DNA of 64,000 nt from a virus: positions 18,937-82,936 of IMG/VR virus record IMGVR_UViG_3300047321_000170; one strand, 5' to 3'. This document shows, in pieces, positions 1,225-38,412 of this stretch; positions within the stretch are counted from its first letter, which is position 1; the number at the start of each line of letters is the position of its first letter. Both the position numbers and the translations under genes were made by a program. The notes beneath the pieces were generated by a model. It was given only the letters and a program-made list of their open reading frames with translations. It did not search any database and was not told the origin of the DNA.

Positions 1225-1604
1225 ACGAAGCTACCCAAGCCCTCGACCCCCAACCGTTGATCGACGCACTGACGCGCCAGCGCAACGAACAATGCGACCG
1301 TGTCGCGCAAGCTGAGGCCGCGCTCTTCTCGACGCAGGCCGCGCTCCAGCAGACGCTGGCCAACCAGGCGAAGACGCAGTCGATGCTTGACGACACGCTG
1401 GTTGCGATGAAGCAACAGCAGGATCTGCACGCGACCAGTCTGGATGAACGAGAGCGCATCGAAGCCGGTCTGCGCGATCAGATCAAGAGCTTGGAGTCGC
1501 AGCTCGACTCCTACACGCGCGTACCCACAACCGTAGCCGTCTCTGTGGAGATGCCGCCTGAGGCTCCGGCACCGCTGGCCTATCCGGGGTCAATGCCTAC
1601 CTGA
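1221..1604 (+). CDS. Coiled-coil protein coupled to the radical SAM gene
   Basis: This 127-residue protein begins at an ATG that overlaps the radical SAM stop as ATGA, so the two are probably translated together. Residues about 15-95 are rich in Q, L, A, E and K with heptad-like spacing, consistent with a long coiled coil. The tail is Pro/Ala-rich (PPEAPAPLAYPGS). There is no signal peptide and no cysteine cluster. It may be the partner or substrate of the radical SAM enzyme or a small virion or assembly protein; the sequence does not decide. Confidence 0.75.
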   Translation: MNEATQALDPQPLIDALTRQRNEQCDRVAQAEAALFSTQAALQQTLANQAKTQSMLDDTLVAMKQQQDLHATSLDERERIEAGLRDQIKSLESQLDSYTRVPTTVAVSVEMPPEAPAPLAYPGSMPT

Positions 1605-1630
1605 CACCACCGTGGTTCAGCGTAGTTCAT

Positions 1631-1656
1631 AAGGGAACCTAACAGGTTCCCTTTTG
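1631..1656 (+). terminator. Rho-independent terminator after the radical SAM unit
   Basis: AAGGGAACC (1631-1639) and GGTTCCCTT (1645-1653) form a 9-bp stem with loop TAACA, followed by Ts. It separates the radical SAM pair from the lysis promoter. Confidence 0.85.
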
Positions 1657-1678
1657 CTTTGCTGTGCGAAGAAACTCT

Positions 1679-1707
1679 TTGTGTTGGGTTTACGCGGCCA
1701 ATAAAAT
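1679..1707 (+). promoter_or_regulatory. Sigma-70-type promoter for the lysis/fibre operon
   Basis: TTGTGT (1679-1684), a 17-base spacer and TAAAAT (1702-1707). The start site is expected near 1713, at the base of the hairpin at 1711. The -35 context CTCTTTGTGTTG closely resembles the promoter before the terminase. Confidence 0.75.
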
Positions 1708-1710
1708 TTC

Positions 1711-1736
1711 GGCACTCACCACCACCACAGAGTGCC
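1711..1736 (+). promoter_or_regulatory. CCACCAC-loop hairpin at the 5' end of the lysis mRNA
   Basis: GGCACTC and GAGTGCC form a perfect 7-bp stem around ACCACCACCACA. It lies at the predicted transcript start and ends 4 bases before the endolysin ATG, where a Shine-Dalgarno sequence would be; no AGGAG-like site is present. Confidence 0.7.
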
Positions 1737-1740
1737 CCTC

Positions 1741-2271
1741 ATGTCCGTCACATCCGATCAGCTGCGGAAGATCTGGACGCATGCTCCTTCAGTGCGCTGC
1801 GTGTCGTTCGCGCCGCTGCTGAGCAGCGCAATGCAGCGCTTTGGCATCGACACCCCCGAAGAGATCGTCGAGTTCCTGGCTCAAGTCTCGCACGAGTCTG
1901 GCGAAGGCCAGTGGCTCAAGGAGCTGGCCAGCGGCAAGGCCTACGAAGGCCGTAAGGATCTCGGCAACACGCAACCGGGCTGGGGTGTTCTCTACAAAGG
2001 CCGCGGCTTGATCCAATGCACGGGATACACGAACTACGTGCTTATGGGCCATCTGTTGGGCCTAGACCTGATCAACCATCCGGAGCTGCTGGAAGAGCCC
2101 GCTAACGCGTGCTTGAGCGCCGCAGCATTCTGGTGGAACCACCATCTCGATAACCTCGCGTTGAAGAAGGACTTCGTCGGTGTGACGAAGGTCATCAACG
2201 GCGGAACGAACGGCCTCAAGGAGCGTGAAGAGTATCTGGCGCTCGCCCGCGCCGCTCTGGGAGTGAACTGA
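1741..2271 (+). CDS. Endolysin, GH19 chitinase-like muramidase
   Basis: This protein of about 176 residues matches the phage GH19 endolysin fold. AQVSHESGE (about 47-55) carries the candidate catalytic Glu52, and YKGRGLIQCTGYTNY is the conserved GRG-Q-TG-NY block of the family. It would hydrolyse peptidoglycan at the end of infection. There is no signal peptide, so it needs a holin. ATG 1741 is preferred to GTG 1732, which lies in the hairpin arm. Its TGA overlaps the next ATG, starting the lysis cassette. Confidence 0.9.
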   Translation: MSVTSDQLRKIWTHAPSVRCVSFAPLLSSAMQRFGIDTPEEIVEFLAQVSHESGEGQWLKELASGKAYEGRKDLGNTQPGWGVLYKGRGLIQCTGYTNYVLMGHLLGLDLINHPELLEEPANACLSAAAFWWNHHLDNLALKKDFVGVTKVINGGTNGLKEREEYLALARAALGVN

Positions 2272-2681
2272 TGCCACGATCCAGCGACTTCATCGCAAGA
2301 CTAGGCTTCACGACCTACACACTGGTCGTGTGTCTCACTTCCATCTTCTCTAACAACTGGGTGGCGGTTGTGAGTCGGTATAGCGGAGGGGCGGTCTTCT
2401 CGACGCTCCTCCTGCTGACCGGCACGTTGCTGGTGATCGACCTGGTCATCAACGACCTCATGCCCGAGCGGTTCGTTTTCCAATGGGGTTTGAAGTGGCG
2501 TCACTGGGTCTACCCCTGCGTGTCATTTGCCTTCACGTCGCTCCTTTTTATCGCTGAACAAACCTATAAGAGCGTCCCTCTCGACGCCCTCGCGGTCTAC
2601 GGCTCGATGGCCCTTATCGGCGTCGTGCTGAGTTTCCGCAATCTCTTTTCTGAACGGGGTCGAGTGTGCAAAGAACACTAA
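2271..2681 (+). CDS. Multi-pass membrane protein of the lysis cassette
   Basis: A 136-residue protein with about four hydrophobic stretches (near 11-28, 38-60, 77-95 and 105-122) and basic loops. It starts in the endolysin stop (TGATG) and overlaps the following membrane gene. Position and topology suit a holin, antiholin or other lysis-timing protein. No family is recognised, so the role rests on context. Confidence 0.75.
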   Translation: MPRSSDFIARLGFTTYTLVVCLTSIFSNNWVAVVSRYSGGAVFSTLLLLTGTLLVIDLVINDLMPERFVFQWGLKWRHWVYPCVSFAFTSLLFIAEQTYKSVPLDALAVYGSMALIGVVLSFRNLFSERGRVCKEH

Positions 2682-3067
2682 GAATCTGGGCGCTCTTGCT
2701 GGCGCTCACCTGGTCCGCAGCGGCCTATGCAGCAACCCATGCACAAGTCGCATTCGGTTCTGACCTGGCCCGCATCCCGATGCTGGCCTATGTCATCACG
2801 ATCGTGCTGAGCGGCATCGGTGGCGCCGCTTCCACGCTTCAGAAGCTGTCGCGCGCCGCAGACCTGTCGCGCTGGCAGCTGGAGGTCGTGAAAGACACCG
2901 TGTCGGCAATCGTCGCGGGCCTGCTCGTGTTCTTCCTGTGCGAGTCGTTCGAGTGGGATTCAGCGCGCGAGGCCTTCGCGATCACGATCGCCGGCTACGG
3001 AAACTCGAAGCTGATCGACCTGATGTTCCGCAACTTCGTGAAGCAACTGCCGGAGCCGAAGCAATGA
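2666..3067 (+). CDS. Putative holin
   Basis: A 133-residue protein starting at GTG 2666. It has an N-terminal hydrophobic segment with a signal-like AAAYAATHA end, a second membrane segment (AYVITIVLSGIGGAAS), and a third (VSAIVAGLLVFFLC) before a charged C-terminus. This resembles phage holins that permeabilise the inner membrane for endolysin release. It overlaps the genes on both sides, so the cassette is tightly coupled. Which of the two membrane genes is the true holin cannot be decided here. Confidence 0.7.
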   Translation: MQRTLRIWALLLALTWSAAAYAATHAQVAFGSDLARIPMLAYVITIVLSGIGGAASTLQKLSRAADLSRWQLEVVKDTVSAIVAGLLVFFLCESFEWDSAREAFAITIAGYGNSKLIDLMFRNFVKQLPEPKQ

Positions 3068-4301: not shown

Positions 4302-7235
4302 ATGCGACCACCGTGGGACTCAGTCAACGACTTCCTTCAGATCTACCCCGGTACGCTGAATCAGGGGCTGGACCCGGCGAACCTGCGCGACCAGTTCTTC
4401 CCGGCCAGCGCGTTCGTGCTGAACGAATCTTTCACGCTGCCTGGCGGAACTGGCAAGACTACCGGGGCGTGGTCGTCGGATTCTGGCGACCAGACGATGC
4501 CGGCCGCGCAGATGGAACCTCGCGTCTACTGCACGAAGGGCAAGGCAACGCTCAACTTCAACGGCACATCGCTGGTCCTGCGTATTCAGCTTGACTCGGA
4601 CTGGGGCACTGCCGCGATCTACATCGACGGCAAAGCTCCCAGCACGATGGGTCTGGCTACCGCGCTCGACACGATCAACTGCAACCTCGACACGTCCAGC
4701 TACCCCGGCATGCAGCCGGGAGTGCGTCAGTACATCGACGTGCTGGTGGCAGATGGACTGACACCAGGCCTGCACACGGTCGACCTGTATGCGACGAACG
4801 GCGGGACTACCAAGTACCTGGTGGTCTCGGGTGCGAAGGTACGCTCGTACAACAAGCAGCCGTTCGTGCTCAGCGGCTGGAAAGCAGCTAACCTGAATAC
4901 CGGCAAGCTGACGCTCGCGAACCGTGGTGCGGACGCCGTGCTGAACGTGACGTTGCAGGTTCCGGCGACGTTCAAGCAGGCAAGCGACGGCACCGCCTTC
5001 GCCTCACCGATCGCGGTCGGGAACCTGACGCCTGACTCACAGTTCGACCTCAACTATTCGATCGACGGCTCGGGCCAGCCCGACAACGTCTCGATCCCGC
5101 TGTACCTGTCGGGGCTCTACCGAGATCCAGCTGGCGCCGTCCAAGTGAACACGCCGTTCACCTATGGCATGACCAGCTCCGCGGTCACCTTCGGCCCGCT
5201 CAACGGCTGGTCGTTCGACGCGGATACACCCGATGGTTCCACGCGCGCGATCTCGAATGGCACGGCCAAGACGCTCAGCTTCTTCACGAGCGCAACCTCG
5301 GTGGACTTCACACTCCAGCGCGACAACGGCTGGGGCACAGCATCCGTACTGGTCAACGGCGTCTCGTACGGCACGCTCACGTCCAACGATGCAGTAGGTG
5401 GAGGCTTCCTCGCGGTTCAGACGATCTCTGGTCTGCCGGCTGGTAAGAAGCAGGTTGTCATCTCGACGCTCGGGACAGCAGCTCACCCACTCGTCATCAC
5501 CAAGATCGCTGGTCAGAACAGCGACTGGTACTCGCAGGTTAATGAAACCATCTTCGTCAACTACGCCTTCAGCAACGTACCTCCGTTCGCTGTTGATGCG
5601 GCATGGGCGAAGGACGATGTCGGCGTGACGTGGGTCAATCCCGACACCAGCAAGGTGGATCTCAGCATCCCGCGAGACAGCCGCAATGCAACCGGCGTGC
5701 GCGCGTATGCCCGGTTCCCCACCTTCGCGGTCTACTACCAGAGTGGCAAGCAGGACATCCTCTCCAGCTATGACCTCGTGATCGTGGACCCCAACGGGGT
5801 CTCACGACAGGACGTGCAGGCTCTTCAAGCCAAAGGGATCAAGGTTCTAGGATACGTCTCGTTCGGCGAAGAAGACGGCATCGTGCAGGACATCTACGAT
5901 CCGAACTCGCCGATCGGCCCGTGGAGGGATGACGGCCTGGGCACTGGCGGCTACGCCTCCTACTACAACAAGGGCGGCAACCTGTACGGCGAGCCCACCG
6001 AATGCAATCGCGACCTTCAGCGCACACAAGGCCTGAAGCAGTGCGAGCTGGGCCGCGCCGAATACTTCACGGGTCGCGGTCGATGCAGCCAGGCCTGCAC
6101 GTTCGACAGCCGCGCTGGCTACGTGACGTACAGCGCGGGTGGCAAATGCGGCGGTGGCTTCACGAGCAGCAATAACTGGATTCGTGACGAGTCGGCAGCA
6201 TGCACGAACGGTGACTGCCCCAAGTACACGCCGGTCAACAAGAAGTGCCCGAAGTGGATCGAACCAGATGTGGGTTGGGGGCAGGACTTTTCGCAGACGG
6301 AAGACTTCCCTGACCAGAACGGCATCTGGGGCTCGACGTACATCAACCCGCTCGCGCCAAGGTGGAAGGAGAAACTTCAAACCTTGTACCTTCCGACTGT
6401 GCTCGATGCTGGCGTGAAGTACATCGAAGAGGTCAAGACACTCGTGGCCTATGGCTCGACACAAATGAGCTTCCGTGCCGCCCACTGGCCGATCGACGAT
6501 GCCGAAGAGTTGGTCCTCACCAACGCTGACCGCAGCATCACGTACACGCCGAATCTGCACTTCGGATACGACAAGGCGACCGGCGCGTTCACGATGGACA
6601 ACAACGTTGGCGTGGAAGACTTCGGCTGGCCTCCGCTCGTCGCGGGACAACAGCTGTTGCTCACGTACACGCGCAAAGGCCTGCAATGCGATGGCGTGTT
6701 CATGGACACGGTCGATACGGTTGACATCTACCCGTCCGACGCATTCCAGCAGGCGATGGCTGACATGATCAACAGCCTGTTCGACGAGCGTAAGGCCACC
6801 ACGCCCAAGCTCTTCTGCTCGAACCGTGGCTTCACGATCCTGCCGAAGATCGTCCAGTCGTGTGAGTACGTCATGTTCGAGAGCTGGCTCACGGACTATG
6901 ACTTCGAGAAAGGCGTCTATGGCCCGATCACAGATCCTGAGTCCATCGCGTTCAACAACGGTGTGAAGGCGATGCTCCGTCAGCTGCGGCGTGAGCACAC
7001 CTTCGATGTTCTGTCGTTGAACTACTGCACGAACGGCCCTGCTGGCAACACGCTGCGTCAGTACCTGTATGACACCGACTCGGCGGAAGGCTACATGAGC
7101 TGGTCTTCCGTGATTGAACTCGACGACCCACTCCCGCAGCAGCAGATGCAAACGACTGTCGCCGCCGCGATCCGTTCGAACGTGTGGGCACTGCTGCGCA
7201 GCGGCGGTCTCACTGACGGCCAACCTAATAGCTAA
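4302..7235 (+). CDS. Tail-associated glycosidase, GH114-like TIM barrel with carbohydrate-binding modules
   Basis: A 977-residue protein. Two similar beta-sandwich modules (about 55-190 and 295-410) share a DxxWGTAxxxxxG motif and look like carbohydrate-binding domains. From about 465 the sequence matches the GH114/endo-alpha-1,4-polygalactosaminidase type: YDLVIVDPNGV, LQAKGIKVLGYVSFGE, GVFMDTVDTVD (about 798-808) and MFESW (about 860). An insertion at about 565-650 contains eight cysteines. The likely role is cleavage of a galactosamine-type exopolysaccharide or capsule on the host surface. The fold assignment is moderate, the substrate inferred. Confidence 0.78.
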   Translation: MRPPWDSVNDFLQIYPGTLNQGLDPANLRDQFFPASAFVLNESFTLPGGTGKTTGAWSSDSGDQTMPAAQMEPRVYCTKGKATLNFNGTSLVLRIQLDSDWGTAAIYIDGKAPSTMGLATALDTINCNLDTSSYPGMQPGVRQYIDVLVADGLTPGLHTVDLYATNGGTTKYLVVSGAKVRSYNKQPFVLSGWKAANLNTGKLTLANRGADAVLNVTLQVPATFKQASDGTAFASPIAVGNLTPDSQFDLNYSIDGSGQPDNVSIPLYLSGLYRDPAGAVQVNTPFTYGMTSSAVTFGPLNGWSFDADTPDGSTRAISNGTAKTLSFFTSATSVDFTLQRDNGWGTASVLVNGVSYGTLTSNDAVGGGFLAVQTISGLPAGKKQVVISTLGTAAHPLVITKIAGQNSDWYSQVNETIFVNYAFSNVPPFAVDAAWAKDDVGVTWVNPDTSKVDLSIPRDSRNATGVRAYARFPTFAVYYQSGKQDILSSYDLVIVDPNGVSRQDVQALQAKGIKVLGYVSFGEEDGIVQDIYDPNSPIGPWRDDGLGTGGYASYYNKGGNLYGEPTECNRDLQRTQGLKQCELGRAEYFTGRGRCSQACTFDSRAGYVTYSAGGKCGGGFTSSNNWIRDESAACTNGDCPKYTPVNKKCPKWIEPDVGWGQDFSQTEDFPDQNGIWGSTYINPLAPRWKEKLQTLYLPTVLDAGVKYIEEVKTLVAYGSTQMSFRAAHWPIDDAEELVLTNADRSITYTPNLHFGYDKATGAFTMDNNVGVEDFGWPPLVAGQQLLLTYTRKGLQCDGVFMDTVDTVDIYPSDAFQQAMADMINSLFDERKATTPKLFCSNRGFTILPKIVQSCEYVMFESWLTDYDFEKGVYGPITDPESIAFNNGVKAMLRQLRREHTFDVLSLNYCTNGPAGNTLRQYLYDTDSAEGYMSWSSVIELDDPLPQQQMQTTVAAAIRSNVWALLRSGGLTDGQPNS

Positions 7236-7245
7236 CGAGGCACCT

Positions 7246-8337
7246 ATGACAGTTCTCTTCACCGATGGCATGGACAGCTACGCAACTGCTGCCGATGTCG
7301 TGCTTAAGTGGGCCGCTTGCTCGATGGCCTTCGACTCTACTGCTGGCCGCTTCGGCGGTGGCTCGCTGCACGCCGCGGGTGTGACGCCCCAGTCGCTCGC
7401 GACGCCGCTCTTCCCGAGCAACGTCAAGTACGAGACGGTCTTCAACTTCGGCTTCAATTTCAAGTCGGTCGCCACCGACAGCTACGACTCGATCACCGCA
7501 GGCAAGCCGCTCGTCGCACTGCCTAACAACTTGGGCTCGGGCGCCCAGCTCGCAGGCATCCTGTATGTGAATCCGGCCAACGGTGGCGGCAACATCGTCA
7601 TGGGCCTGCTGGGCTCGACGAACCTGGGTCTGCAAGCAGCCGGCCGCGCGAACCTGCTTGATGGACGGCAGCACTGGGTCGAAGTGCAGCTGAAGATCTC
7701 GTCGAACGCAGCGAACGGCATCTGCACGGTCTACGTTGACGGCGTTCAGGACCTGGTCTACACGGGCGCGACGGCGGTGGGCGCGCTCACGTCGCTCAAC
7801 GGCAACGTCAACCTGTGGAACGGCGCACCGAACAACGCGAACGCCCACATCTGGTTCGACGACTTCATGCTCTGGGACACGACCGGCAACGCTGCATTGG
7901 ATCTCACAACCTTCCCGGTTGGTCCGCAGCGCATCGTAACGCTGGACCCGAACGCTGACGGTGACAACATCGACTTCACGCCGAGCGCGGTGGGCACACA
8001 CTTCGGTCTTGTCTCCGGTTCCTACAACTCGGCGAGCTACGTGAGCGACGCGAGCGGTAACACAGGCCATCTTGAACTCTTCAAGTTCCCTGCTCTCCCC
8101 TTCGTGCCGAACGCAATCACCACCCTGGTCCTGAACCTGTTCGGCCAGAACCCTGGCTCGACTGCGCTGAACATTCTGCCGAAGGTGAAGCTCTCGGGCA
8201 CCGTGGCCACGGGCGCGTCAATCAGGCTCTCGAACGGCGTGAACAAGCTCTCGCAGACATCGTTCCCGCGTGACCCGGCAGGCAACGTCTGGGTTCCGGC
8301 GAACGTCAACATCGTCCAAGCCGGCGTGGGTGACTAA
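7246..8337 (+). CDS. Tail/fibre protein with jelly-roll-like domain
   Basis: Starting at ATG 7246 behind GAGG, this 363-residue protein begins MTVLFTDGMDSY. It has a LamG/concanavalin-like beta pattern (HWVEVQLKISS, ICTVYVDGVQDLVY, IWFDDFMLWD). The C-terminal half is a second beta domain. Such modules occur in phage receptor-binding or tail-tip proteins. Its stop overlaps the next ATG as TAATG. Confidence 0.75.
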   Translation: MTVLFTDGMDSYATAADVVLKWAACSMAFDSTAGRFGGGSLHAAGVTPQSLATPLFPSNVKYETVFNFGFNFKSVATDSYDSITAGKPLVALPNNLGSGAQLAGILYVNPANGGGNIVMGLLGSTNLGLQAAGRANLLDGRQHWVEVQLKISSNAANGICTVYVDGVQDLVYTGATAVGALTSLNGNVNLWNGAPNNANAHIWFDDFMLWDTTGNAALDLTTFPVGPQRIVTLDPNADGDNIDFTPSAVGTHFGLVSGSYNSASYVSDASGNTGHLELFKFPALPFVPNAITTLVLNLFGQNPGSTALNILPKVKLSGTVATGASIRLSNGVNKLSQTSFPRDPAGNVWVPANVNIVQAGVGD

Positions 8338-8891
8338 TGGCCACCGCACTCAAGCGCGTCAGCAAGGTTCAGCAGGAGGTCGTAGCCAGCCAGGCTTCGA
8401 AGCCTGCTGCACGTCAGGTAACCAAGATCTCCGCTGAGCTGGTGCAGACGCTCGGCATCACTGAGGCAGCGGGGCGTGTCAGCAAGGCCCAGGTCGAAGC
8501 CGTGGTCGCGCCGTCCACGCGACCAGCTGCTCGTGCGCTCACGAAGGCGAACCTCGACGTGGTGGCCGCAGCACTGACGGACGCGCCCACGCGGCAAGTG
8601 CGGCGTGCCTACATCGAAGTGCTGTGTTCGCAACAGGAGAAGCTGGTTGTTGGTCTGCCGGATCTGGGCGAGGTCAACCCTTTCCTCGTGAACATGCCGG
8701 TCGTGGCTGTCGTTCGCACAGTGGCCAAAGTCAACGGCCAGGAAGTAGAGACGCCGCTGAATGACTGCAAGCGCGTCTGGTATCGGATGACGGTCACGAA
8801 GAGCAACGGGCAGCAGCTACTGCCTTTTGTCGACGACGAGCCACGGCTGAAGCCTAACCCCACAGGACACGACGAGCCTCAAACGTACTAA
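8337..8891 (+). CDS. Virion-module protein with internal repeats
   Basis: A 184-residue protein whose first 100 residues hold about two and a half copies of a repeat of about 37 residues with core RVSKxQxEVV, then PAARxxTK, then ExVxxL or similar. The remaining part is a small beta-rich domain. It lies between two tail genes with 1-base coupling upstream, so a tail or fibre role is likely, but no family is recognised. Confidence 0.7.
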   Translation: MATALKRVSKVQQEVVASQASKPAARQVTKISAELVQTLGITEAAGRVSKAQVEAVVAPSTRPAARALTKANLDVVAAALTDAPTRQVRRAYIEVLCSQQEKLVVGLPDLGEVNPFLVNMPVVAVVRTVAKVNGQEVETPLNDCKRVWYRMTVTKSNGQQLLPFVDDEPRLKPNPTGHDEPQTY

Positions 8892-8898
8892 GCACCAC

Positions 8899-8918
8899 CG
8901 CCCGTCCACCACCGGGCG
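8899..8918 (+). promoter_or_regulatory. CCACCAC-loop hairpin
   Basis: CGCCCG and CGGGCG form a perfect 6-bp stem with loop TCCACCAC. It lies between two co-directional tail genes, 18 bases before the next start, and is followed by a separate AAGGA site. Confidence 0.7.
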
Positions 8919-8936
8919 CCTACAAGGAAATGGATC

Positions 8937-9254
8937 ATGCCAGCTGGCCGCTACAACCTTTTGATCGAGCAAGGCGCAACCTTCCGCCTTCCGTTCATCT
9001 ATCGCGACGTGGGCGGTAATCCCGTCCAGTTCGACAACATGCAGGGCGTGATGACGCTGTTCGATCCGAATGGCACAGTAGTCCTGAAGAAAACATCACC
9101 AGATGGTGTGCGCCTCGCAGTCGCAGGCTCGATCGACATCGAGCTGACGGCGGTCGAGACCGCAGCCCTCTCGGTCGGTGGGACGTATCGCTTCGAGCTG
9201 GTCAACGGCACGGATGTCGATCGGGTGCTCAAGGGAACGTGGAGCCTCGAATGA
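8937..9254 (+). CDS. Small beta-sandwich tail protein
   Basis: A 105-residue protein of Ig-like beta pattern (YNLLIEQGATFRLPFIYRD, then GVMTLFDPNGTVVL). It resembles the protein starting at 63714 in its opening and size, so the two may be the same class of tail-assembly or fibre-linking protein. AAGGA at 8924-8928 supports ATG 8937. Its stop overlaps the collagen-fibre ATG. Confidence 0.75.
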   Translation: MPAGRYNLLIEQGATFRLPFIYRDVGGNPVQFDNMQGVMTLFDPNGTVVLKKTSPDGVRLAVAGSIDIELTAVETAALSVGGTYRFELVNGTDVDRVLKGTWSLE

Positions 9255-10738
9255 GCGATACCAATCTGGTTGTTGAAGTGCATCCGACGCTGCACAACAC
9301 CGTCGAAGTGCGCGCGGCCTCTAAGGCGGTGGACGTGCTCCCGCAGACGGGCAATCAAGTCGATACACATCCGCTCTCGCCGCTCGTCGAAGTGCGCGCG
9401 CCTGGCCTTCAGGGGCCGAAGGGAGATCCGGGTGATGTCGGCCCGACTGGTCCTGCTGGTGCGCAGGGCGAGCAAGGTCCGGAAGGTCCGCAGGGCGTGC
9501 CGGGTCCGAAGGGCGACGTGGGCGATCACGGGCCGCAGGGCATTCAGGGCGAGAAAGGTGACCCCGGCGCGCAGGGTCCACAGGGCCTTCCCGGTGTAAA
9601 GGGTGACACCGGGCCGCAGGGTTTGCAGGGGCCGAAGGGTGATCAGGGCGACCCTGGCCCGCAGGGGCCGCAAGGCCTGAAGGGCGACAAGGGCGATCAG
9701 GGCGACCAGGGGCCGCAGGGGATTCCGGGTGTGAAGGGTGACACCGGAGCGGCCGGCGCGGCTGGCGCGCAAGGGCCGGTCGGCCCTGCCGGTGCCGATG
9801 GTCTGCAAGGCCCAGCTGGTCCGAAAGGCGACAAGGGTGACCCTGGCGCGCAGGGGCCGCAGGGCGAGGTTGGCCCGATGGGACCGGCAGGCAGCGGTGA
9901 GGGAAGCATCGGCCCGGAGGGGCCGCAGGGTGTGGCCGGCCCGCAGGGGCCGAAGGGCGACACAGGCGACGTGGGACCGGCAGGCGCGCAGGGGCCGCAG
10001 GGTGAACAAGGGCCAGCCGGTGCGGACGGAGCGCAGGGGCCGCAGGGCATCCAGGGCGAGCCGGGTCCGAAGGGCGACACAGGCGCGCAGGGGCCGCAGG
10101 GTATCCAAGGCGAGAAAGGCGACACAGGGGCGCAAGGTCCGCAGGGGCTTCAGGGTCTGAAGGGTGACCAAGGTGACCCCGGTGCGCAAGGGCCGCAAGG
10201 GCTAAAGGGCGACACCGGGGCGCAAGGGCCGCAGGGCTTGAAGGGCGACACCGGGGCGGCAGGCGCGCAGGGCATTCAGGGGCCGCAGGGCACGCAAGGT
10301 GTGCAGGGCGTGAAAGGCGACACGGGCGTGCAGGGACCGCAAGGTGTTGCTGGTCCCACCGGCGCCACCGGCCCGCAAGGGCCGAAGGGTGACCCAGGCG
10401 CTACTGGCCCAGGAGCTATTCCGCTCCCCGGCACGATCGCCACCGCGTCCAAGACACTGGCTCTCACCGATGCGCCCTCCCCGGCCTATCAGGGTGGCGT
10501 GCCGATGAACGTGGCGACGGCGAACACCGTGACCGTCCCGCCGAACGCGAGCGTGGCCTTCCCGGTCGGCACCATGATCATGGTCGGCCAGCTAGGCGCG
10601 GGGCAGACCAGCATCGTGGCCGGATCTGGCGTGACGCTGCGCACCAGCTCGTCGCTGACGCTGCGCGCGCAGTACTCGTGTGCCACGCTCTGGAAGGTGG
10701 ACACCGATACGTGGATGGTGATGGGAGATCTGACGTGA
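9251..10738 (+). CDS. Long collagen-like tail fibre
   Basis: ATG 9251, overlapping the previous stop, gives 495 residues. There is a roughly 55-residue N-terminal attachment region, then more than 110 Gly-X-Y triplets dominated by GPQGxKGDxG types (about 54-400). A compact C-terminal head follows, with a small Ser/Thr-rich beta domain. This is a trimeric collagen-like fibre shaft with a receptor-binding tip. Proline-rich reverse-strand frames here are artefacts of the triplet repeat. Confidence 0.88.
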
Positions 10739-11460
10739 TCCCGGCTGCGTTCCGATACCGCCCGACGATTCCCTCGGGCGGGAGCATTCAGGTCGTCTCG
10801 ACATCGAGCGCGGTCGCTGACGTGGCCGTGGCCAACTCGGGCAACGCGTTCGCCACGCTGCCAGCGCCATCGGGCATCGTCGCGGGGAACCTGCTGTTTG
10901 CGTACGCGGTGTACGACGATTTGAACGCCGTGTCATCCCTCGCGCCTGCCGGTTGGACGGTGCAGCGCGCGTACAACTACTCGACCCACAACAACACCGG
11001 CTTCATAGCCACCTTGTGGAAGATCGCGACCGCCAACGAGCCCGCGAGCTATTCGTTTGGCAGCGCGAGCATCAACACGATCAGCGTGGGGTGCGTTCAG
11101 CTGTCAGGCGTTTCGCAGAGCAACCCGTTCGGCGGGATAGGCCCCACGAATACCAAGATCAACTCGGCCACGACGACCTTCGCGACGCTCACGCGGGCGG
11201 TAGCAGGGCTTGAATTGCTGGTAGCGGGCACGGGCTCCAACTACTCCAGCACTGTCGCGAACGCGTGGACGCCACCCTCTGGATATACCCAGCTGCCCGC
11301 CGTGACGGGCAACTACAACAAGAACAACACGTCCGAGTCGCAGGCGATCTTCGCGGCGTACAACCTCAACGCCCCGGTTGGTGCGACGGGGGCCTTGACC
11401 GGGACTCTCAATAAGGCTTACTACAACGGCACCTTCAATATCTCCTTCAACCCTGCCTGA
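10735..11460 (+). CDS. Fibre/receptor-binding-type protein
   Basis: GTG 10735 overlaps the fibre stop, giving 241 residues. The protein is beta-rich, with patterns such as LAPAGWTVQ, IATLWKIATANEPASYSFG and FATLTRAVAGLELLVAG. These are found in host-interaction domains of phage and prophage tail proteins. It is the last gene of the left-hand structural block. It is probably a fibre tip or accessory receptor-binding protein; the exact role is inferred from position. Confidence 0.72.
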   Translation: MIPAAFRYRPTIPSGGSIQVVSTSSAVADVAVANSGNAFATLPAPSGIVAGNLLFAYAVYDDLNAVSSLAPAGWTVQRAYNYSTHNNTGFIATLWKIATANEPASYSFGSASINTISVGCVQLSGVSQSNPFGGIGPTNTKINSATTTFATLTRAVAGLELLVAGTGSNYSSTVANAWTPPSGYTQLPAVTGNYNKNNTSESQAIFAAYNLNAPVGATGALTGTLNKAYYNGTFNISFNPA

Positions 11461-11595: not shown

Positions 11596-11787
11596 ATGAC
11601 ACCCACCACTGTCACCACGCCCACCCCGAAGCTGTACCGAATTCAAGCCGTCATGCAGCAGCTCAGCGTCTCGCGCGCGACCGTCTATCGTCTCGTGAAC
11701 AACGGCAAGCTGAAGCTGGTCAAGATCGGCGAACGCTCCAGCGGCATCACCGCGGAGAGCGTTGACGCTCTGGTAGCCGGCGCCTAA
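11596..11787 (+). CDS. AlpA/Xis-like HTH protein (putative excisionase)
   Basis: A 63-residue protein with a winged-helix HTH_17 pattern: LYRIQAVMQQLSVSRATVYRLVNNGKLKLVKIGERSSGI. This type binds attachment sites or prophage promoters and directs excision. GGAG at 11586-11589 supports ATG 11596; ATG 11584 is the alternative. It is immediately left of the attP region and integrase, with an AACTAT-type operator upstream. Confidence 0.8.
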   Translation: MTPTTVTTPTPKLYRIQAVMQQLSVSRATVYRLVNNGKLKLVKIGERSSGITAESVDALVAGA

Positions 11788-12174: not shown

Positions 12175-12481
12175 GCAGCTACCCACCCTTCTGCCCTACC
12201 ACCCCAAAAGTGGGTAGCTAGTCGGGTAGCTAGAGCCTAATTTTACTGGTCTGTTCACCGCAAACCCTTATGCAGCAAGGCTGCGAGAAATTCATGAAGA
12301 TTGCCACCTGCAATCTCCATTGATGTGTTTTAACGTACCGGAGTGTTTCAGGCAATCCCCGGAAAGCCCTGCCCAGCAAGGGTTCGTGTTCCGTAGTGTT
12401 TCATAATGTTTCGCGATACCACGCGAAATATGGGTAGCTAGGTGGGTAGCTAGAGCACGTATAATCGCGCCTAGCTACCCA
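12175..12481. other. attP: Probable attP region with six mirrored arm-type repeats
   Basis: The 11-mer TGGGTAGCTAG occurs directly at 12211 (paired with CGGGTAGCTAG at 12223) and again at 12431 and 12443. Both pairs have the same 12-base pitch. Inverted copies lie outside each pair at 12175-12185 (9 of 11 bases) and 12471-12481 (exact). The mirror arrangement around a 197-base centre, between excisionase-like and integrase genes, fits integrase arm sites flanking a core. The core itself is not identified. The rest of 12102-12496 holds no credible gene. Confidence 0.65.
12460..12465 (+). promoter_or_regulatory. Integrase promoter -10 inside arm sites
   Basis: A perfect TATAAT lies between the last direct arm site and the inverted one. 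No good -35 is present, so activity is probably shaped by proteins bound to the arm repeats. Confidence 0.5.
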
Positions 12482-12496
12482 CCACAGAGACCTACG

Positions 12497-17917: not shown

Positions 17918-17926
17918 CTTCGGTTC

Positions 17927-17948
17927 AGGGCCGGTGGTGGACGGCCCT
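17927..17948 (-). promoter_or_regulatory. CCACCAC-loop hairpin before thyX
   Basis: AGGGCCG and CGGCCCT form a perfect 7-bp stem; the loop on the mRNA is UCCACCAC. It is intercistronic, 9 bases before the ThyX ATG. Confidence 0.72.
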
Positions 17949-17961
17949 GCCTGTTGTCGTT

Positions 17962-18537: not shown

Positions 18538-18565
18538 GATGTGGTGGTAGTGGTGGTGGTGAAAT

Positions 18566-22687: not shown

Positions 22688-23132
22688 GTTGGGTGGCCAG
22701 AAGTTGTGAGAAAAGCACATGGTTCGAGATTCGGTGGTGGTCGATCTCGGCCCACTTCATCGACTTTGTGGTGTTATCGATGATGTGCGACGCGTGGACT
22801 GCATACCAGATTCCATACGACTCTCGCCGGATGAAGAAGTAATAGTCCCCGCCTGCTGCTACTGCCTTGCGTGCTGCGCGCCACTGGTTCTTGGCGATCA
22901 TGCTGAAGGGGAAAGACGGCTCCTTCACCGTGCTCTTCACTTCAGCGTAGAACATGCGGCCTTCCCATGTGACTGTGAAGTCAGAAGGCTGTGCGTCCTT
23001 GATTGCTCGTTGAAGCCCAGTGGCACCGCGCACATGCGCCGTGTCGGTAAGTCGCTCGACTGCTGCGCGCTTACCGAAAGGCGCAAAGAAGGAGATGAAC
23101 TCCTCCTCTGCATCCTTCCAGACTTGCTTCAT
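22668..23132 (-). CDS. PD-(D/E)xK nuclease, Holliday-junction-resolvase-like
   Basis: 154 residues with the nuclease core PSDFTVTWEGRMFYAEVKS (Asp, then ExK), preceded by an arginine-rich stretch and RGATGLQRAIK. This matches RecU/VRR-NUC type endonucleases. It probably resolves recombination intermediates made with Rad50/Mre11. It is the first gene after a strong promoter. Confidence 0.78.
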   Translation of the reverse strand: MKQVWKDAEEEFISFFAPFGKRAAVERLTDTAHVRGATGLQRAIKDAQPSDFTVTWEGRMFYAEVKSTVKEPSFPFSMIAKNQWRAARKAVAAGGDYYFFIRRESYGIWYAVHASHIIDNTTKSMKWAEIDHHRISNHVLFSQLLATQHDRKMP

Positions 23133-23147
23133 TTTTTCTTTGACTAC

Positions 23148-23214
23148 GTGGTGGTGGTGTGCATCGATTATATCTAGCTAGTACCTCTAAGGTTCAAGGA
23201 ACTAGCTGATAGTT
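23148..23214 (-). promoter_or_regulatory. Promoter, operator and CACCACCAC leader for the nuclease/recombination operon
   Basis: On the minus strand: operator AACTAGCTGATAGTT (23200-23214), -35 TTGAAC (23192-23197), a 19-base spacer, perfect -10 TATAAT (23167-23172), then CACCACCACCAC (23148-23159) at the predicted transcript start. Confidence 0.7.
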
Positions 23215-23215
23215 A

Positions 23216-24538
23216 TCACACTACTTTGTCTGTGCGAAAGCGCACGAACACCGGGTTGCGAAGCGACCCTTCGGAGGTCTTCTCCATGTACTCGCATTCG
23301 AGTATCCAGCCCAGCATCTCCTCACGCCGCTCCCAGAACTCGTGGCGTTGTGCGCGCGTATAGCCACCGCCCACGTTGACTCGGAACGAACTACCATCTT
23401 CCAATTTTCCCTCGATGGTGAAACCACCGAGTACGTGCTCGAACTGGCTCTTTTTCTTGCCGTTGTAAAAGCCGACAATGCGCCCTTCTGCCGTGTCCAG
23501 AGGCTTGCCCTTCAACCAATGCGGGCTGCGGCCCCACACATACGGCGCGCGCTTCGCCTTCAGCATGAAGCCCTCGAATCCCTGCGCGAGCGCCAGGTCG
23601 AAGAACGCCTTTACTTCGTCCCGGTTGTTCACGGTCTGCTTGTAGCTCGGCAGGAGCTTGCCGGTCCACTGGAGCCCTTCCTCCGTCTCGACCGCGCAGA
23701 CCTTCTCCAGCGCCGCGTCGAGCAGCTCGCTGCGCTCTTCCTGCGGGCGCACGCAAGTCTGCTGGTCCCACTCCACCTTCGTGAGCCAATCGTAGGCATA
23801 GAAGCGCAGCTGCGAGCGGTCAGCGCCATCCTTCTTGGACTTCGACGTGGCCGTCCAGCTTGGGTGCTTCTCGCCTGGAGCGACCACATGGATCATCAGC
23901 TCGCCGTCTAGCACCATCGGCTGATCGCCGACCAGCGCCTGGCGCAGTGCCTGCATGTCGGCGTCGAACAGCGTGCCCATCCAGTACGTCTGGTCAAGAC
24001 CATCGCGCGAATACCCGACGACCGGCTGGCCGGGGTAGACGAAGACCGCTGTGCGTTGGCCGTCCATCTTGAACTCGATCTGGGCGGGGAACTCTGGGTC
24101 ATGCTCGGCATACTTCTCGGCCAGCATCACGTCGAACACGGGGATCAGGCCGGGGAAGACCTTGTTGATCTCCTTCGCGCCGATGCCCACGCGCAGGTTC
24201 TTGCGCAGCACTGCCGCGAGGTTGTCGGCCGTCTCGACCGAGTATTGCGCCAGCGTGCAGCGAATCACGTCCTTCGCCGCGTTGCCGGTCAGTCGGCGCG
24301 TCGCCAGTGACAGCAGCAGCTGGACGAACTCTTCACCGTTGTCCACGTCCTCGGCGCGGTAGTCATCAGGCAGATCGAAGTCTTTCACCCCGTACGTCAC
24401 GAAAGGCGACAGCGCTGCGACCAGCATCTTCTTGGCAAACTCTTCAGGGTCAGCACCGAGCTTGGTGATAGCTTCGATCTTCTCGTTCTTGCTGCTTGTT
24501 GCCCGGCACTCGGCCATCAGTCGGTTGAAACGTCTCAT
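23216..24538 (-). CDS. ATP-dependent DNA ligase
   Basis: 440 residues. Motif I is EFKMDGQR near 156-161, with the nucleotidyl-accepting Lys. Later motifs include VLDGELMIH, EGFMLKAK and WLKGKPLDTAEGRIVGF, and an OB-fold with VGGGYTRAQR. It seals nicks in phage replication. The start is coupled to a 73-residue gene that overlaps the polymerase stop. Confidence 0.92.
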   Translation of the reverse strand: MRRFNRLMAECRATSSKNEKIEAITKLGADPEEFAKKMLVAALSPFVTYGVKDFDLPDDYRAEDVDNGEEFVQLLLSLATRRLTGNAAKDVIRCTLAQYSVETADNLAAVLRKNLRVGIGAKEINKVFPGLIPVFDVMLAEKYAEHDPEFPAQIEFKMDGQRTAVFVYPGQPVVGYSRDGLDQTYWMGTLFDADMQALRQALVGDQPMVLDGELMIHVVAPGEKHPSWTATSKSKKDGADRSQLRFYAYDWLTKVEWDQQTCVRPQEERSELLDAALEKVCAVETEEGLQWTGKLLPSYKQTVNNRDEVKAFFDLALAQGFEGFMLKAKRAPYVWGRSPHWLKGKPLDTAEGRIVGFYNGKKKSQFEHVLGGFTIEGKLEDGSSFRVNVGGGYTRAQRHEFWERREEMLGWILECEYMEKTSEGSLRNPVFVRFRTDKVV

Positions 24539-24756
24539 GCTTTCAAGTCCTCTTCTACTGCTGCCTTTGCTTCGGCGACGATACGCACGGCTTCGTCACC
24601 CTCCCCGTTGATCGTCATGAGCCGCGCGATCTCGCGAAGACCCTCTTTCAGCGCTTGCGAATCGTTGACTCTGCTGCCGAACGCCTCACGCGACCTGTAG
24701 CCACTAGCGGTGGCGATGTAGATATCAACTTCGCTGTGTACGATCTTGTTGCTCAT
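24535..24756 (-). CDS. Unknown 73-residue protein between polymerase and ligase
   Basis: MSNKIVHSEVDIYIATASGY, a helix-rich C-terminus (AVRIVAEAKAAVEEDLK). It overlaps both neighbours by ATGA. No family recognised. Tight coupling suggests a replication-associated role. Confidence 0.65.
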   Translation of the reverse strand: MSNKIVHSEVDIYIATASGYRSREAFGSRVNDSQALKEGLREIARLMTINGEGDEAVRIVAEAKAAVEEDLKA

Positions 24757-27473
24757 GCTGTTGCTTCCTCTTCCTGTTGTGCCTCAGCCGGCATGCCGTC
24801 GAGGATGTAGTCCAGAATCGCCTGGCGCTCTTCACGCGTGGCACGCTTGCCCCAACGGTCTTCCGCGATACACGGCAGACCCTTCTGCATTTCCATCAGC
24901 TCGACCTGGCCGTCAGGGCACTTCTCCTTGTTCCACGGCTGCATGGTCTTGCCGATAGCAAGGGAAGAGTCCAGCTTCAGGTTCTTCATCAAGCCAGCGT
25001 CTTCGATCATCACTTCGTAGAAGTCGTCAAAGAAGTCGATCACTTGCGAGCGCGGCACGCTGTAGATCAGTTCGTCGTGAATCAGCAGATAGAAGCGGGC
25101 GCGGTAGCCACGCTCAGCGATGCGCTGCTTCATGCGGATAATTGCGCGCTTCGCGAGCGCTCCACCGAGACCCTGAACCTTCGCGTTCACGCACTGGTTA
25201 CCAGCGCGGCGATTGATCTTCTTGATCACTGCATCACCGAAGGCTGCGATCGCCGGATCTCCATAAGAAGCGAACTTCTGCTTCATGATGTTGATCCACT
25301 CGTAGGTCGCCTCGAAGCGGTCACGGCGATGGTGATCGGGTAGTTCAACGTAGCCGCGCTCGCGGGCTTCCTCGATCGTGCTGACGCGCCACTCTTCAGC
25401 CACAGAGAACGTCGCGCGGTACTTGTCGACCATCTCCCACATGAACTCGCTCGACCATCCCAGCGCTTCGCCGGTCGTGCCCAGGGCGCCCGAATACCAG
25501 TAGCCGAAGTTCGCCGGCTTGCCGATGTCGGTACGCAGCTGCTTCTTGTTGGGGTTCGACTCGTACTCGTCGTCGGTCAGCCCCATCAGACCCGTCACGG
25601 CTTCCTTGTGCAGATCCTCGTGAGGCCGCTGGCCATAGGCCTTGCGGAACTTCGGATCGTTCGAGTAGTCGCCGATGATCACCAGCTCGACAGCGGACCA
25701 GTCGGCCGACACGAGCACATGCTCTTCGCCTTCAGCATCGTCGTCATCGGCCTCGAAGAAGCCGCGGACATACACCGCCTCGCCGAACTTGCTGAGCTGC
25801 TGGCCATTCGGGTTCTGGCACGAGCTGCGACGTGTCGCCAGCATCGACGACATCTGCGGGTACACACGACCTGTATCGGGATCGACTAGGCACAGGTAAG
25901 GCGTCAGGTACAGCTTCACGCGCTGTGAGATAGAAGCCATCTCCTTGTACGCGCGGAACATGGTCATGCCCGCCTCGTAGCGCTTGATCAGCTCCTGGAG
26001 CGCTGGCAACGTCTTGGCCGACAACTTCAGGTCAGCGCTGACCTCACCAGTCTTCTCGTCGATGCAACCCTTCAGGATCTCGTCGTTGTAGCGTTTGATC
26101 CAGCGACGCTCCAGCTCGACGCGGCAGTCACCATCGCTTTGCGTCTTGCCATCGGCCTGCATATACGAGCCACGCAGCAAGTCATAGATGATCGTCCGCA
26201 TCGGCATGTAGTGGATGAGGTTCACGCCGCTCGACTCTTTCACGCCGCGCTCGATCGCCCAGGCGTTCGATACCGGGCCGCGCGTCTGCATGCACTGCTC
26301 GAAGTCGTCGTCGCTGTCGTCGGACTTCGCCCACTTCTCGATCTGCGTGCGGTACTTCTTGTAGCCTTCGCTTCCCTTCGCAGGATCGAAGTACCACTTG
26401 TCGTACTTGGCCAGCTTCTCGTGTGGCTCCTCGGGGAACGGGAGCAGATCGCGGATCGCAGCCTTCATGGTCCGCAGGCAGCGCGCTTCGTTCTCGCGCT
26501 CCTGATCGCGTCGGGAGAGCACCGCCTTACCGTTCAGCTTGATGCCGTGTTGCCACGCCTTCGAGGCCTCTTCGACGAAAGGCATCTCCTGTTGCATGAA
26601 CGTGTTGAACACGGGCGGGTTCGTCGCCATGATGAAAGCCATCACGCGGTGGAAGAGCTGCAAGCACCAGTAGGCGTCATCGACGCCGTACTCGTAGACC
26701 TCGTCGCCCGTCAGCTGACCCATGTGGGCGCGGCCCCGTAGCGTCTCCTCGAAGGTCGCCATCTTGTAGCCGAACCAGCTGTGGACGGCCCGCTTCAGGT
26801 CGTAGCCGATCTTGATCGACGCGACGTAGCCGTTGTAGCTGTGCGCTGAATCCGACTCCTTCGCGATGACCTTGTAGAGCAGATCTTCCTGGTCCGCGTT
26901 CATGGTCTGGCCAGGCTCGTATCCAGCGAACACGCGCGAGACGGCCGGCAGCAGGCGCTCGATGCCACCGAGTCCCGGTTCGCGGAACCGATCGATGAAG
27001 TAGGTATCCGGCGAGTACGCCGTCACGCACAGCTGCAACGTGCAGATGACGCGTGTGCCGAGATCAAAGCCTGCGGCTTTGGCCATCATCGTCCACTCGA
27101 AGCTCGCGTTGTGGATGACCCAGTACGCGTCGGGCTTCTTCGCGGCCAGCAATGTGAGCGCTTGCGCAAGCGGCACACGGTTCTCGATGTCGGCGTGTGC
27201 GAGGTTGATGTAATACCCATGATGGTTTTCATCCGGGTACAGCGAGAATCCAGTTACGGTCGTGCGGTTCGTGTCGAAGACGAGCTTGGTGTTGCCGCCC
27301 TTCTTGCCTTCGTCGTTGATCTTCATGAGACGGTTCAGACCCTCGTGTCGACGAGAGTCTTCCGTTTCAATGTCGAATCCGATGAACCCCTTGCCCGCAA
27401 CTTCTTCAATGATGCGCGGAGCCAGTTCGGCCCAATTGCGCGCATCAACGAGAACTTTGCGATCGGCTTCCAT
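24753..27473 (-). CDS. Family A DNA polymerase with 3'-5' exonuclease
   Basis: ATG 27473 behind GGAG gives 906 residues. Exo motif I is FIGFDIETED (Asp34, Glu36) and exo II HNASFEW, where the usual Asp appears as Glu. Polymerase motif A is VSADWSAVELV near 590, motif B RTDIGKPANFGYWYSG and motif C LLIHDELIYSVP near 799. It is the T7/Pol I-type replicase of the phage. It has no N-terminal 5'-3' nuclease; that is a separate gene upstream. Confidence 0.95.
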   Translation of the reverse strand: MEADRKVLVDARNWAELAPRIIEEVAGKGFIGFDIETEDSRRHEGLNRLMKINDEGKKGGNTKLVFDTNRTTVTGFSLYPDENHHGYYINLAHADIENRVPLAQALTLLAAKKPDAYWVIHNASFEWTMMAKAAGFDLGTRVICTLQLCVTAYSPDTYFIDRFREPGLGGIERLLPAVSRVFAGYEPGQTMNADQEDLLYKVIAKESDSAHSYNGYVASIKIGYDLKRAVHSWFGYKMATFEETLRGRAHMGQLTGDEVYEYGVDDAYWCLQLFHRVMAFIMATNPPVFNTFMQQEMPFVEEASKAWQHGIKLNGKAVLSRRDQERENEARCLRTMKAAIRDLLPFPEEPHEKLAKYDKWYFDPAKGSEGYKKYRTQIEKWAKSDDSDDDFEQCMQTRGPVSNAWAIERGVKESSGVNLIHYMPMRTIIYDLLRGSYMQADGKTQSDGDCRVELERRWIKRYNDEILKGCIDEKTGEVSADLKLSAKTLPALQELIKRYEAGMTMFRAYKEMASISQRVKLYLTPYLCLVDPDTGRVYPQMSSMLATRRSSCQNPNGQQLSKFGEAVYVRGFFEADDDDAEGEEHVLVSADWSAVELVIIGDYSNDPKFRKAYGQRPHEDLHKEAVTGLMGLTDDEYESNPNKKQLRTDIGKPANFGYWYSGALGTTGEALGWSSEFMWEMVDKYRATFSVAEEWRVSTIEEARERGYVELPDHHRRDRFEATYEWINIMKQKFASYGDPAIAAFGDAVIKKINRRAGNQCVNAKVQGLGGALAKRAIIRMKQRIAERGYRARFYLLIHDELIYSVPRSQVIDFFDDFYEVMIEDAGLMKNLKLDSSLAIGKTMQPWNKEKCPDGQVELMEMQKGLPCIAEDRWGKRATREERQAILDYILDGMPAEAQQEEEATA

Positions 27474-27475
27474 CG

Positions 27476-27655
27476 TTACTCCTGCGCAGCTTTTTGCGCG
27501 CCGACCAGCGCGATGGCCAGGTTGGCGTGCTCCGGGTGTGCATTGAGCAGATCGTGGAGCTGGTTGGCGAGCCCCCACACCTTCGCCTTGACGATAGGTT
27601 CGAGCTTGCCTATCTCGTCCTCGACGAGCTTCAGTTGATGCTGAGCGATGTTCAT
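27476..27655 (-). CDS. Small 59-residue protein before the polymerase
   Basis: MNIAQHQLKLVEDEIGKLEP, predicted helical. It ends 2 bases before the polymerase ATG and carries that gene's Shine-Dalgarno in its last codons, so it is probably translated in a coupled way. Unknown function. Confidence 0.65.
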   Translation of the reverse strand: MNIAQHQLKLVEDEIGKLEPIVKAKVWGLANQLHDLLNAHPEHANLAIALVGAQKAAQE

Positions 27656-27661
27656 TGTTTT

Positions 27662-27681
27662 GATCCGTGGTGGTGGTGATC
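27662..27681 (-). promoter_or_regulatory. CCACCAC-loop hairpin, weak stem
   Basis: GATC pairs with GATC around a 12-base loop ACCACCACCACG on the mRNA, the same loop length as the hairpin before the endolysin. It lies 7 bases before ATG 27655. Confidence 0.45.
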
Positions 27682-28457: not shown

Positions 28458-28477
28458 GTGGTCCTCGCGTGGACGTA

Positions 28478-28511
28478 GAAAAAGCCGCGGGCTCTTTCGA
28501 GTCCGCGGCTT
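28478..28511 (-). terminator. Terminator after the ssDNA-binding-like gene
   Basis: AAGCCGCGG (28482-28490) and CCGCGGCTT (28503-28511) form a 9-bp stem; on the minus strand it is followed by a T run. Confidence 0.8.
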
Positions 28512-28528
28512 CCGATGACGCTAGGCAG

Positions 28529-29269: not shown

Positions 29270-29315
29270 GTAAAAGCTCCAGTTTCATTAGCCAGGTTTC
29301 TGTGTCTTACTGCCC

Positions 29316-29346
29316 TCGCTGCTAAGGTGGTGGATCTCAGCGGCGA
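29316..29346 (-). promoter_or_regulatory. CCACCAC-loop hairpin at the predicted mRNA 5' end
   Basis: GCTGAG pairs with CTTAGC (one G-U) and the stem extends four further pairs past a mismatch; the loop is AUCCACCAC. It begins at about +2 of the promoter at 29355-29383. Confidence 0.68.
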
Positions 29347-29354
29347 GTTCGAAG

Positions 29355-29383
29355 ATCTTAACTTCGACCTTCTAACTATTCAA
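29355..29383 (-). promoter_or_regulatory. Sigma-70-type promoter for the ssDNA-binding-like gene
   Basis: TTGAAT (29378-29383), 17-base spacer, TAAGAT (29355-29360) on the minus strand. The start is expected near 29348, at the foot of the hairpin. Confidence 0.65.
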
Positions 29384-29445
29384 TCGCATGTATATGCTAC
29401 TTGCGACTGATAGATCCGCTTACGTGCTACTGCGCACATTCATTT

Positions 29446-38406: not shown

Positions 38407-38412
38407 GCCGCC

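Follow-up and report, generated by a model that had tools for sequence, protein, structure and literature searches.

CCACCAC, a strict start-associated word in a lineage of Burkholderia phages that may promote translation initiation

We analysed a 64,000-nt window of viral DNA (positions 18937-82936 of the 82,936-base phage record IMGVR_UViG_3300047321_000170), in which the heptamer CCACCAC recurs at the starts of genes. About one gene in six is marked by it around the start codon in this family of Burkholderia phages. The word is strict in sequence, follows the orientation of its genes, keeps to a limited range of positions and is accessible in the predicted RNA, in some leaders as the constant loop of a stem with compensated changes; Shine-Dalgarno (SD) sequences tend to be weak or missing beside it. 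On balance we favour the reading that CCACCAC is a lineage-specific start-associated RNA sequence that promotes initiation, mainly on phage mRNAs whose SD is weak or absent. An earlier note on this DNA had described CCACCAC hairpins at the exact 5' ends of mRNAs and proposed that they protect against decay. That observation is real but too narrow, and its interpretation fits one gene.

The clade studied comprises the source record and ten relatives (G001-G010). Eight of these 11 records are 78-83 kb long and were used as the near-full-length set. The closer relatives used are IMG/VR contigs with identities of 72-93% in the polymerase or terminase; the named relatives are the Achromobacter phages JWF and 2-1 (polymerase identity 64-65%) and Xylophilus phage Lumi (46%). 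Burkholderia paludis MSh1 carries a prophage of the same group, found in a terminase scan that also matched one fragment of a metagenome-assembled genome, while a polymerase scan of genome contigs found no relative. Gene starts were taken from our own gene caller, with the SD bonus removed as a check; a version with a CCACCAC bonus was excluded from the counts.

The window contains 52 copies of CCACCAC, compared to 7.4 expected from dinucleotide shuffles, and each of the eight long clade records contains 48-65. JWF, 2-1 and Lumi have 32, 35 and 28 copies, respectively, where about 15, 12 and 14 are expected. In the source record, 28 of the 50 places occupied by CCACCAC (overlaps merged) fall in the 70 nt before called starts, which make up 5.1% of the positions on the two strands. 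Genes with the word between -60 and -1 number 23 of 121 in the source record, 19 of 102 in G002, 14 of 113 in G003, 12 of 114 in G006, 15 of 107 in G008, 16 of 103 in G009 and 16 of 100 in G010. The control region from +30 to +90 gives 0 to 3 such genes per genome. The sister phages rarely use the word at -60 to -1 (JWF, 1/118; 2-1, 1/116; Lumi, 2/106).

Between -40 and -1 in the eight near-full-length genomes, CCACCAC was seen 100 times vs 10.8 expected. Its 21 single-substitution variants stay near background, the highest being GCACCAC (10 vs 3.4) and CCACCAG (9 vs 3.0). The word CACCACA is likewise enriched upstream of starts (56 vs 3.7); the CCACCAC core itself has no ACA. Among 1005 genes, CCACCAC is in the sense orientation in 143 and in the antisense orientation in 6. 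Its profile over 882 genes peaks at -30 to -1, has a smaller second peak at 0 to +19 and then falls to 0-4 per bin, the overall range being about -60 to +20 relative to the start codon. The downstream copies are in-frame Thr-Thr codons within codons 2-6. ACCACC encodes 67 of 127 Thr-Thr pairs in codons 2-6 vs 147 of 724 elsewhere, and this biased codon choice indicates selection on the nucleic acid. In G007 (69464-69509), CCA triplets have grown to 45 bases immediately before a gene start.

For the 105 genes with CCACCAC at most 20 nt from the start, the median SD energy is -2.9, and 22% of them have -4 or better. The corresponding values are -5.0 and 58% for 336 other genes (gap of at least 20 nt), and -2.4 and 19.5% for random 17-mers. 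The difference persists if genes are called without the SD bonus (-2.9 for 94 CCACCAC genes vs -4.3 for 305 others), and genes whose CCACCAC sits more than 20 nt upstream are intermediate. Motif-free orthologs from JWF and 2-1 retain the SD, with -5.0 vs -2.5 in the clade (37 outgroup genes from about 19 groups). The clade SD is the weaker one in 15 of 18 ortholog groups compared with 2-1 and in 14 of 19 compared with JWF. In ortholog groups without CCACCAC the SD is alike (-4.6 vs -4.8; 121 outgroup genes). The start codons of most CCACCAC genes of the source record align with the starts of their homologs. What the copies have in common is a single-stranded heptamer near the start codon; the upstream copies are also accompanied by a weak or missing SD.

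Stems around the word are a feature of a part of the sites. Enclosing stems with a score of at least 14 were found at 32 of 164 clade sites, compared to a mean of 2.9 and a maximum of 10 when right flanks were swapped between sites. A score of at least 12 is reached at 34 of the 164 sites, leaving 130 without a strong stem; these strong stems occur at 15 of 108 sites located 0-20 nt from the start and at 19 of 56 sites located 21-70 nt from it. At least five contiguous pairs surround a CCACCAC loop at 26 sites, which represent 21 distinct stems. In the leader of the major-head-protein gene, all 9 aligned sequences have an identical CCACCAC loop. Four of them share one register. In these, 94% of cells are paired and double changes occur in 7 of 13 pairs. 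Neither value was reached in any of 500 shuffles, and slid registers pair 29-56% of cells. RNAalifold applied to all nine leaders yields just 7 pairs, 4 of them with double changes, because the outer stems differ in register. At 72 sites from four genomes CCACCAC is predicted to be open at 0.85, vs 0.74 with shuffled flanks. Moreover, initiation regions with bare CCACCAC are less folded (-5.5 vs -9.9). The constant loop, the compensated stems and the predicted openness together suggest that the stem presents CCACCAC and is itself dispensable.

We propose that CCACCAC would act in RNA, at translation initiation, and would be read as a single-stranded heptamer, either bare in a little-structured leader or kept accessible in the loop of a hairpin, the sequence of the stem being probably immaterial. 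Its working range would extend from about 60 nt upstream to 20 nt downstream of the start codon. Its reader would be a dedicated, probably phage-encoded RNA-binding factor rather than the bare ribosome, a factor being likelier in view of the conservation of all seven positions and the absence of the motif from host genes. None of 202 genes called in 200 kb of the MSh1 genome uses CCACCAC, and in five unrelated Burkholderia phages it occurs at 1 of 385 genes. A host element was rejected on these counts, and a lineage-owned reader is the simplest account. That CCACCAC increases translation instead of reducing it, and that it has a specific factor, is our inference. The most specific form of this proposal is tentative: a phage-encoded, sequence-specific initiation factor might read single-stranded CCACCAC and recruit ribosomes to SD-less mRNAs, as a private start code for which related phages would use other words (CAGCACACA in JWF and 2-1).

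Several points weigh against a role in initiation through such a factor. The clade members are kin, and hence counts across genomes are not independent; G007 is poorer in genes with CCACCAC at -60 to -1 (9 of 128). The paired SD comparison is based on just about 19 ortholog groups. In genes that have a downstream copy alone the SD is close to normal (-4 or better in 55%), and the SD is retained in the groups of the ligase and the -2253 tail gene; replacement of the SD by CCACCAC is not general. No RNA-binding family was found among 20 of the 121 proteins of the source record that were compared with Pfam (ten of them also with PHROGs).

Individual sites in the window are listed below; positions are those of the window.

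1711-1736, plus strand: hairpin in the endolysin leader, GGCACTC/GAGTGCC stem with CCACCACCAC in the loop; start codon at 1741, no SD; CCACCAC in 6/8 clade orthologs.
8899-8918, plus strand: hairpin CGCCCG-T-CCACCAC-CGGGCG before the gene at 8937; 2/2 orthologs.
11603-11609, plus strand: downstream copy in the first codons of 11596-11787 (Thr-Thr).
12479-12485, plus strand: bare motif in the integrase leader, TATAAT at 12460-12465; motif in 2/5 orthologs.
17926-17949, minus strand: leader of a ThyX-like gene, CAGGGCCG-T-CCACCAC-CGGCCCTG, 16 nt before the start at 17917; CCACCAC in 7/8 orthologs, TCACCAC instead in G001.
18541-18559, minus strand: two bare motif runs before the start of a MazG-like gene at 18537; motif in 5/8 orthologs.
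23148-23157, minus strand: bare CCACCACCAC in the leader of the Holliday-junction-resolvase gene, TATAAT at 23172-23167; predicted mRNA position +4.
27667-27676, minus strand: bare motif adjoining the upstream stop codon on its 3' side; 11 nt to the start at 27655; 6/6 orthologs.
29315-29347, minus strand: 5'-terminal (predicted) hairpin CTCGCCGCTGAG-AT-CCACCAC-CTTAGCAGCGAG of gene 28529-29269; TTGAAT at 29383-29378, TAAGAT at 29360-29355.
33327-33333, minus strand: long imperfect stem whose loop contains the motif; 42 nt to the start at 33284; motif in 8/9 orthologs.
35670-35676, minus strand: downstream copy in the first codons of 35267-35689 (Thr-Thr).
37786-37792, minus strand: bare motif 3 nt before the start at 37782; 3/5 orthologs.
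38166-38178, minus strand: run of bare motif; 15 nt to the start at 38150; 7/7 orthologs.
40731-40747, minus strand: short hairpin ACTC-A-CCACCAC-A-GAGT, motif 9 nt from the start at 40726; motif in 4/5 orthologs.
46759-46765, minus strand: motif upstream of an operator-like palindrome and SD, gene start at 46723; 7/7 orthologs.
46710-46716, minus strand: second copy of the gene starting at 46723, in codons 3-5.
49239-49245, minus strand: bare motif 10 nt before the start at 49228; 2/2 orthologs.
56142-56148, minus strand: bare motif 12 nt before the primase start at 56129; 6/9 orthologs.
61870-61905, plus strand: hairpin in the major-head-protein leader, CCACCAC loop constant, stem compensated; start at 61935; motif in 9/10 orthologs.

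The region 36406-52475 of the window contains ten operator-like palindromes GTGCAG-N(1-3)-CTGCAC, several of them beside gene starts. Similar places hold the palindromes GGTTCGT-ACGAACC in JWF and 2-1 and TTACTAG-CTAGTAA in Lumi.

For the analysis of 5' ends, the predicted transcript start was taken as the 7th base after a -10-like box; the start sites rest on -10 boxes and conservation. CCACCAC is present at all four places for which the earlier note had proposed hairpins at predicted 5' ends. The hairpin itself holds at 29346, is marginal at 1711, and fails at 23148 and 12479, where no stable hairpin forms. In the leader at 1711, the -10-like TAAAAT (1702-1707) places the predicted start at 1714, inside the 5' arm. 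What remains is a 4-bp ACTC/GAGT stem (-1.7 kcal/mol), and the endolysin leaders of G008, G009 and G010 retain just the inner part of the stem. In the resolvase leader (23148-23159), the motif is at predicted +4 or +5 in 9 of 9 clade orthologs, and structure is absent or weak (0 to -2.5 kcal/mol). In the integrase leader the motif is at predicted +8 (+7 in G002) without a hairpin, and a part of it lies within a dyad flanking the -10 box. This dyad (GGTGGGTAGCTAG / CTAGCTACCCACC, 12434-12485), with more TAGCTA copies near 12215-12227, is likely an operator.

Gene 28529-29269 (minus strand) has the best candidate for a 5'-terminal hairpin. Its leader contains TTGAAT-17-TAAGAT at 29383-29355, followed from about +2 by a hairpin with 12-nt arms (-16.4 kcal/mol). 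Under a loose criterion, such a hairpin is predicted in 11 of 12 orthologs, including those from JWF, 2-1 and Lumi, and in 70 of 428 control leaders; with a stricter -10 box (5 of 6 bases) the numbers are 7 of 12 and 10 of 428. Control leaders were scored because the search admitted only stems lying at most 4 nt from the predicted start. Across the family the position of this hairpin is kept, and the sequences of stem and loop are unrelated. The protein has no Pfam or PHROG match. The stem at 29347-29315, at the predicted 5' end, may additionally stabilise this mRNA.

A -10-like box (5 of 6 bases) ending 5-22 nt upstream of the motif was found in 26 of 135 motif leaders from eight genomes, compared to 70 of 2988 control positions. 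These 26 belong to few groups: the resolvase, the endolysin, the -2253 tail gene, the integrase, gene 28529-29269 and one leader from G006. The remaining 109 motif leaders have no near -10-like box, and a mechanical scan for sigma-70 promoters was negative for 1500-1800 and 23100-29500. The placement of CCACCAC at transcript starts, which the earlier note had generalised, is thus above control and still does not extend to most leaders.

Other readings of the word were weighed against these data. A 5'-terminal stem-loop that shields the mRNA from 5'-dependent decay, formed at the start site or by processing, would agree with the excess of upstream -10 boxes and with the conserved hairpin of gene 28529-29269, for which it is a fair account. 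It leaves the element as a whole unexplained, because most motif leaders have no near -10 box, most sites have no strong stem and in-frame copies occur past the ATG; the resolvase and integrase leaders, too, lack a stable hairpin. We consider it quite improbable for CCACCAC in general. A main role at the DNA level, as a promoter or DNA operator, was rejected: the copies track gene orientation, and many follow stop codons without a -10 box. The copies in codons 2-6 and stem compensation that includes some G-U pairs also speak against it. Very improbable in our view is a pairing site for a GUGGUGG-containing RNA (rRNA, or a host or phage small RNA), although a heptamer displayed in a loop resembles a kissing or small-RNA site. 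GTGGTGG is absent from the 16S part (1501-3033) of the loci L078 and L079 and from the Burkholderia 23S locus, and rRNA pairing was rejected for the 16S and 23S sequences examined. A third 16S locus (L080) was not used; it has no GTGGTGG, but its other matches were misaligned with those two. No Rfam family was found in the window. Variants that wobble pairing would tolerate are not favoured (24 vs about 17 expected; other variants, 39 vs about 33).

The word could also be a translational operator, bound beside the AUG by a phage repressor of the RegA kind that shuts off many mRNAs at a set time. Such a repressor would explain the many targets per genome, the strict word and a single-stranded site near or overlapping the initiation region, and RegA sites overlap or sit just 5' of the AUG on about 30 mRNAs according to the available part of PMC3014915. 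Yet repression needs no SD loss, and the SD is absent even where a motif-ATG gap of 9-16 nt has room for it. Head, tail, endolysin and replication genes would be targeted alike, and some copies are more than 40 nt upstream, beyond the usual ribosome footprint. This makes repression an unlikely reading. A generic C/A-rich unstructured enhancer that needs no special factor and is recognised by the ribosome or protein S1 also seems rather doubtful, since the signal is in one heptamer among A/C words and single changes reduce it to background. Further, the loop is constant while stems are rewritten, the core has no ACA, and use of the word does not extend to host genes or other Burkholderia phages. 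Its merits are that ACA and CA-rich elements are known to act in this way, including ones 45 nt upstream of the AUG and ones downstream of it (PMC3879156, in the part available), that bare-motif leaders are less folded, and that certain other A/C words, too, are enriched before starts. An initiation signal read by a dedicated factor is the account we prefer.

The closest known counterparts are the Start Associated Sequences (SAS) with their ESAS from cluster K mycobacteriophages (PMC3203893) and cluster EF Microbacterium phages (PMC7302621). Their role is still termed unknown in the accessible portions of PMC12699233 and PMC11373665. As described in these excerpts, SAS resemble CCACCAC in being short asymmetric sense words located immediately before the starts of some of the genes, limited to one phage group and rare in the host. 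The orientation bias and the host count given above, together with 9-23 genes per near-full-length genome, agree with this pattern. The excerpts also point to differences. SAS hold an SD core that pairs with the 3' end of 16S rRNA, whereas CCACCAC lacks this core and occurs where an SD is missing. About half of SAS are associated with ESAS, long inverted repeats without covariation, whereas the CCACCAC stems enclose the motif and covary. Copies in codons 2-6 occur for CCACCAC and are unreported for SAS in the available text.

The C/A-rich (ACA) enhancers of GcvB targets, known from enteric bacteria as CA-rich elements with loose position (PMC3879156, available part), share with CCACCAC the composition, the flexible position and the copies downstream of the AUG. 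Unlike them, CCACCAC is a strict heptamer with a core lacking ACA, placed in loops of compensated hairpins and specific to a phage lineage. In those enhancers the activity resides in ACA triplets; on this point the ACA-free core and the enrichment of CACCACA give opposite indications. The T4 RegA operators, as presented in the accessible part of PMC3014915, are similar in that one phage has single-stranded sites at the initiation regions of tens of mRNAs. The RegA-type site is A+U-rich and includes the AUG; CCACCAC has a strict C/A-rich sequence and goes along with SD loss. No RegA homolog came up among the 20 of 121 proteins compared with Pfam. Some phage proteins are known to bind host ribosomes (PMC10914614, from its available text). 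Among the open-access papers covered here, none joins CCACCAC with phage and ribosome binding site, a statement limited to that set. The Lumi paper has no mention of hairpin, Shine, promoter or terminator.

Stabilising 5'-terminal stem-loops of the ompA type are a further known system. The likeness is limited to the stem-loop at the predicted 5' end at 29347, in one gene, and the element shared here is the loop word rather than the stem.

A protein that could bind the word was also sought. Four proteins of the source record (38689-39369, 44175-44411, 46415-46723 and 48488-48778) are present in 7 of 7 near-full-length relatives and in none of JWF, 2-1 and Lumi (tblastn); they belong to the ten that were compared with both Pfam and PHROGs. 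The product of 44175-44411 is small, basic (pI 9.2) and clade-specific, has no tblastn match in the phage collection and is modelled as beta-beta-alpha-beta-beta with pLDDT 80. A fold search found nothing at E 0.001, and neither did the viral library. The match to the single-stranded-DNA-binding protein DdrB is weak and partial (38 columns at 1.5 A, E 0.36), and the best VIA-align Z-score, 6.1, belongs to an unrelated photosystem subunit. As a candidate factor this protein is a lead only. The product of 46415-46723 models poorly (pLDDT 64.8) and has no tblastn match in phages.

Other start-associated words and one unusual region were observed. JWF and 2-1 (L002-L005) have a different C/A-rich start-associated word, CAGCACACAGACG or close to it, upstream of the SDs of several early genes. 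Pseudoalteromonas phage KB12-38 (L088-L091) has a strong start-associated word of its own, GGATTGA: of 79 called genes, 30 carry it at most 40 nt from the start, vs 0.6 expected. The tail-side block at 4302-11460 of the window was not matched by tblastn in any of the seven long clade relatives or in JWF, 2-1 or Lumi, and its 977-aa protein matches only Pseudomonas phage SCYZ1 (37%); by this pattern of matches the block appears to be a swapped module.

Start-associated words have been catalogued in phage genomes since 2011 without a known function. The weak SD beside CCACCAC and the SD kept in word-free orthologs raise the question whether a phage can own an SD-independent, sequence-specific recruitment of ribosomes. 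The rewritten stems with a constant loop are a ready set of ligands for finding the binding protein. If the proposal is true, it would be a new way of favouring phage over host mRNA, and CCACCAC would be a portable expression signal.
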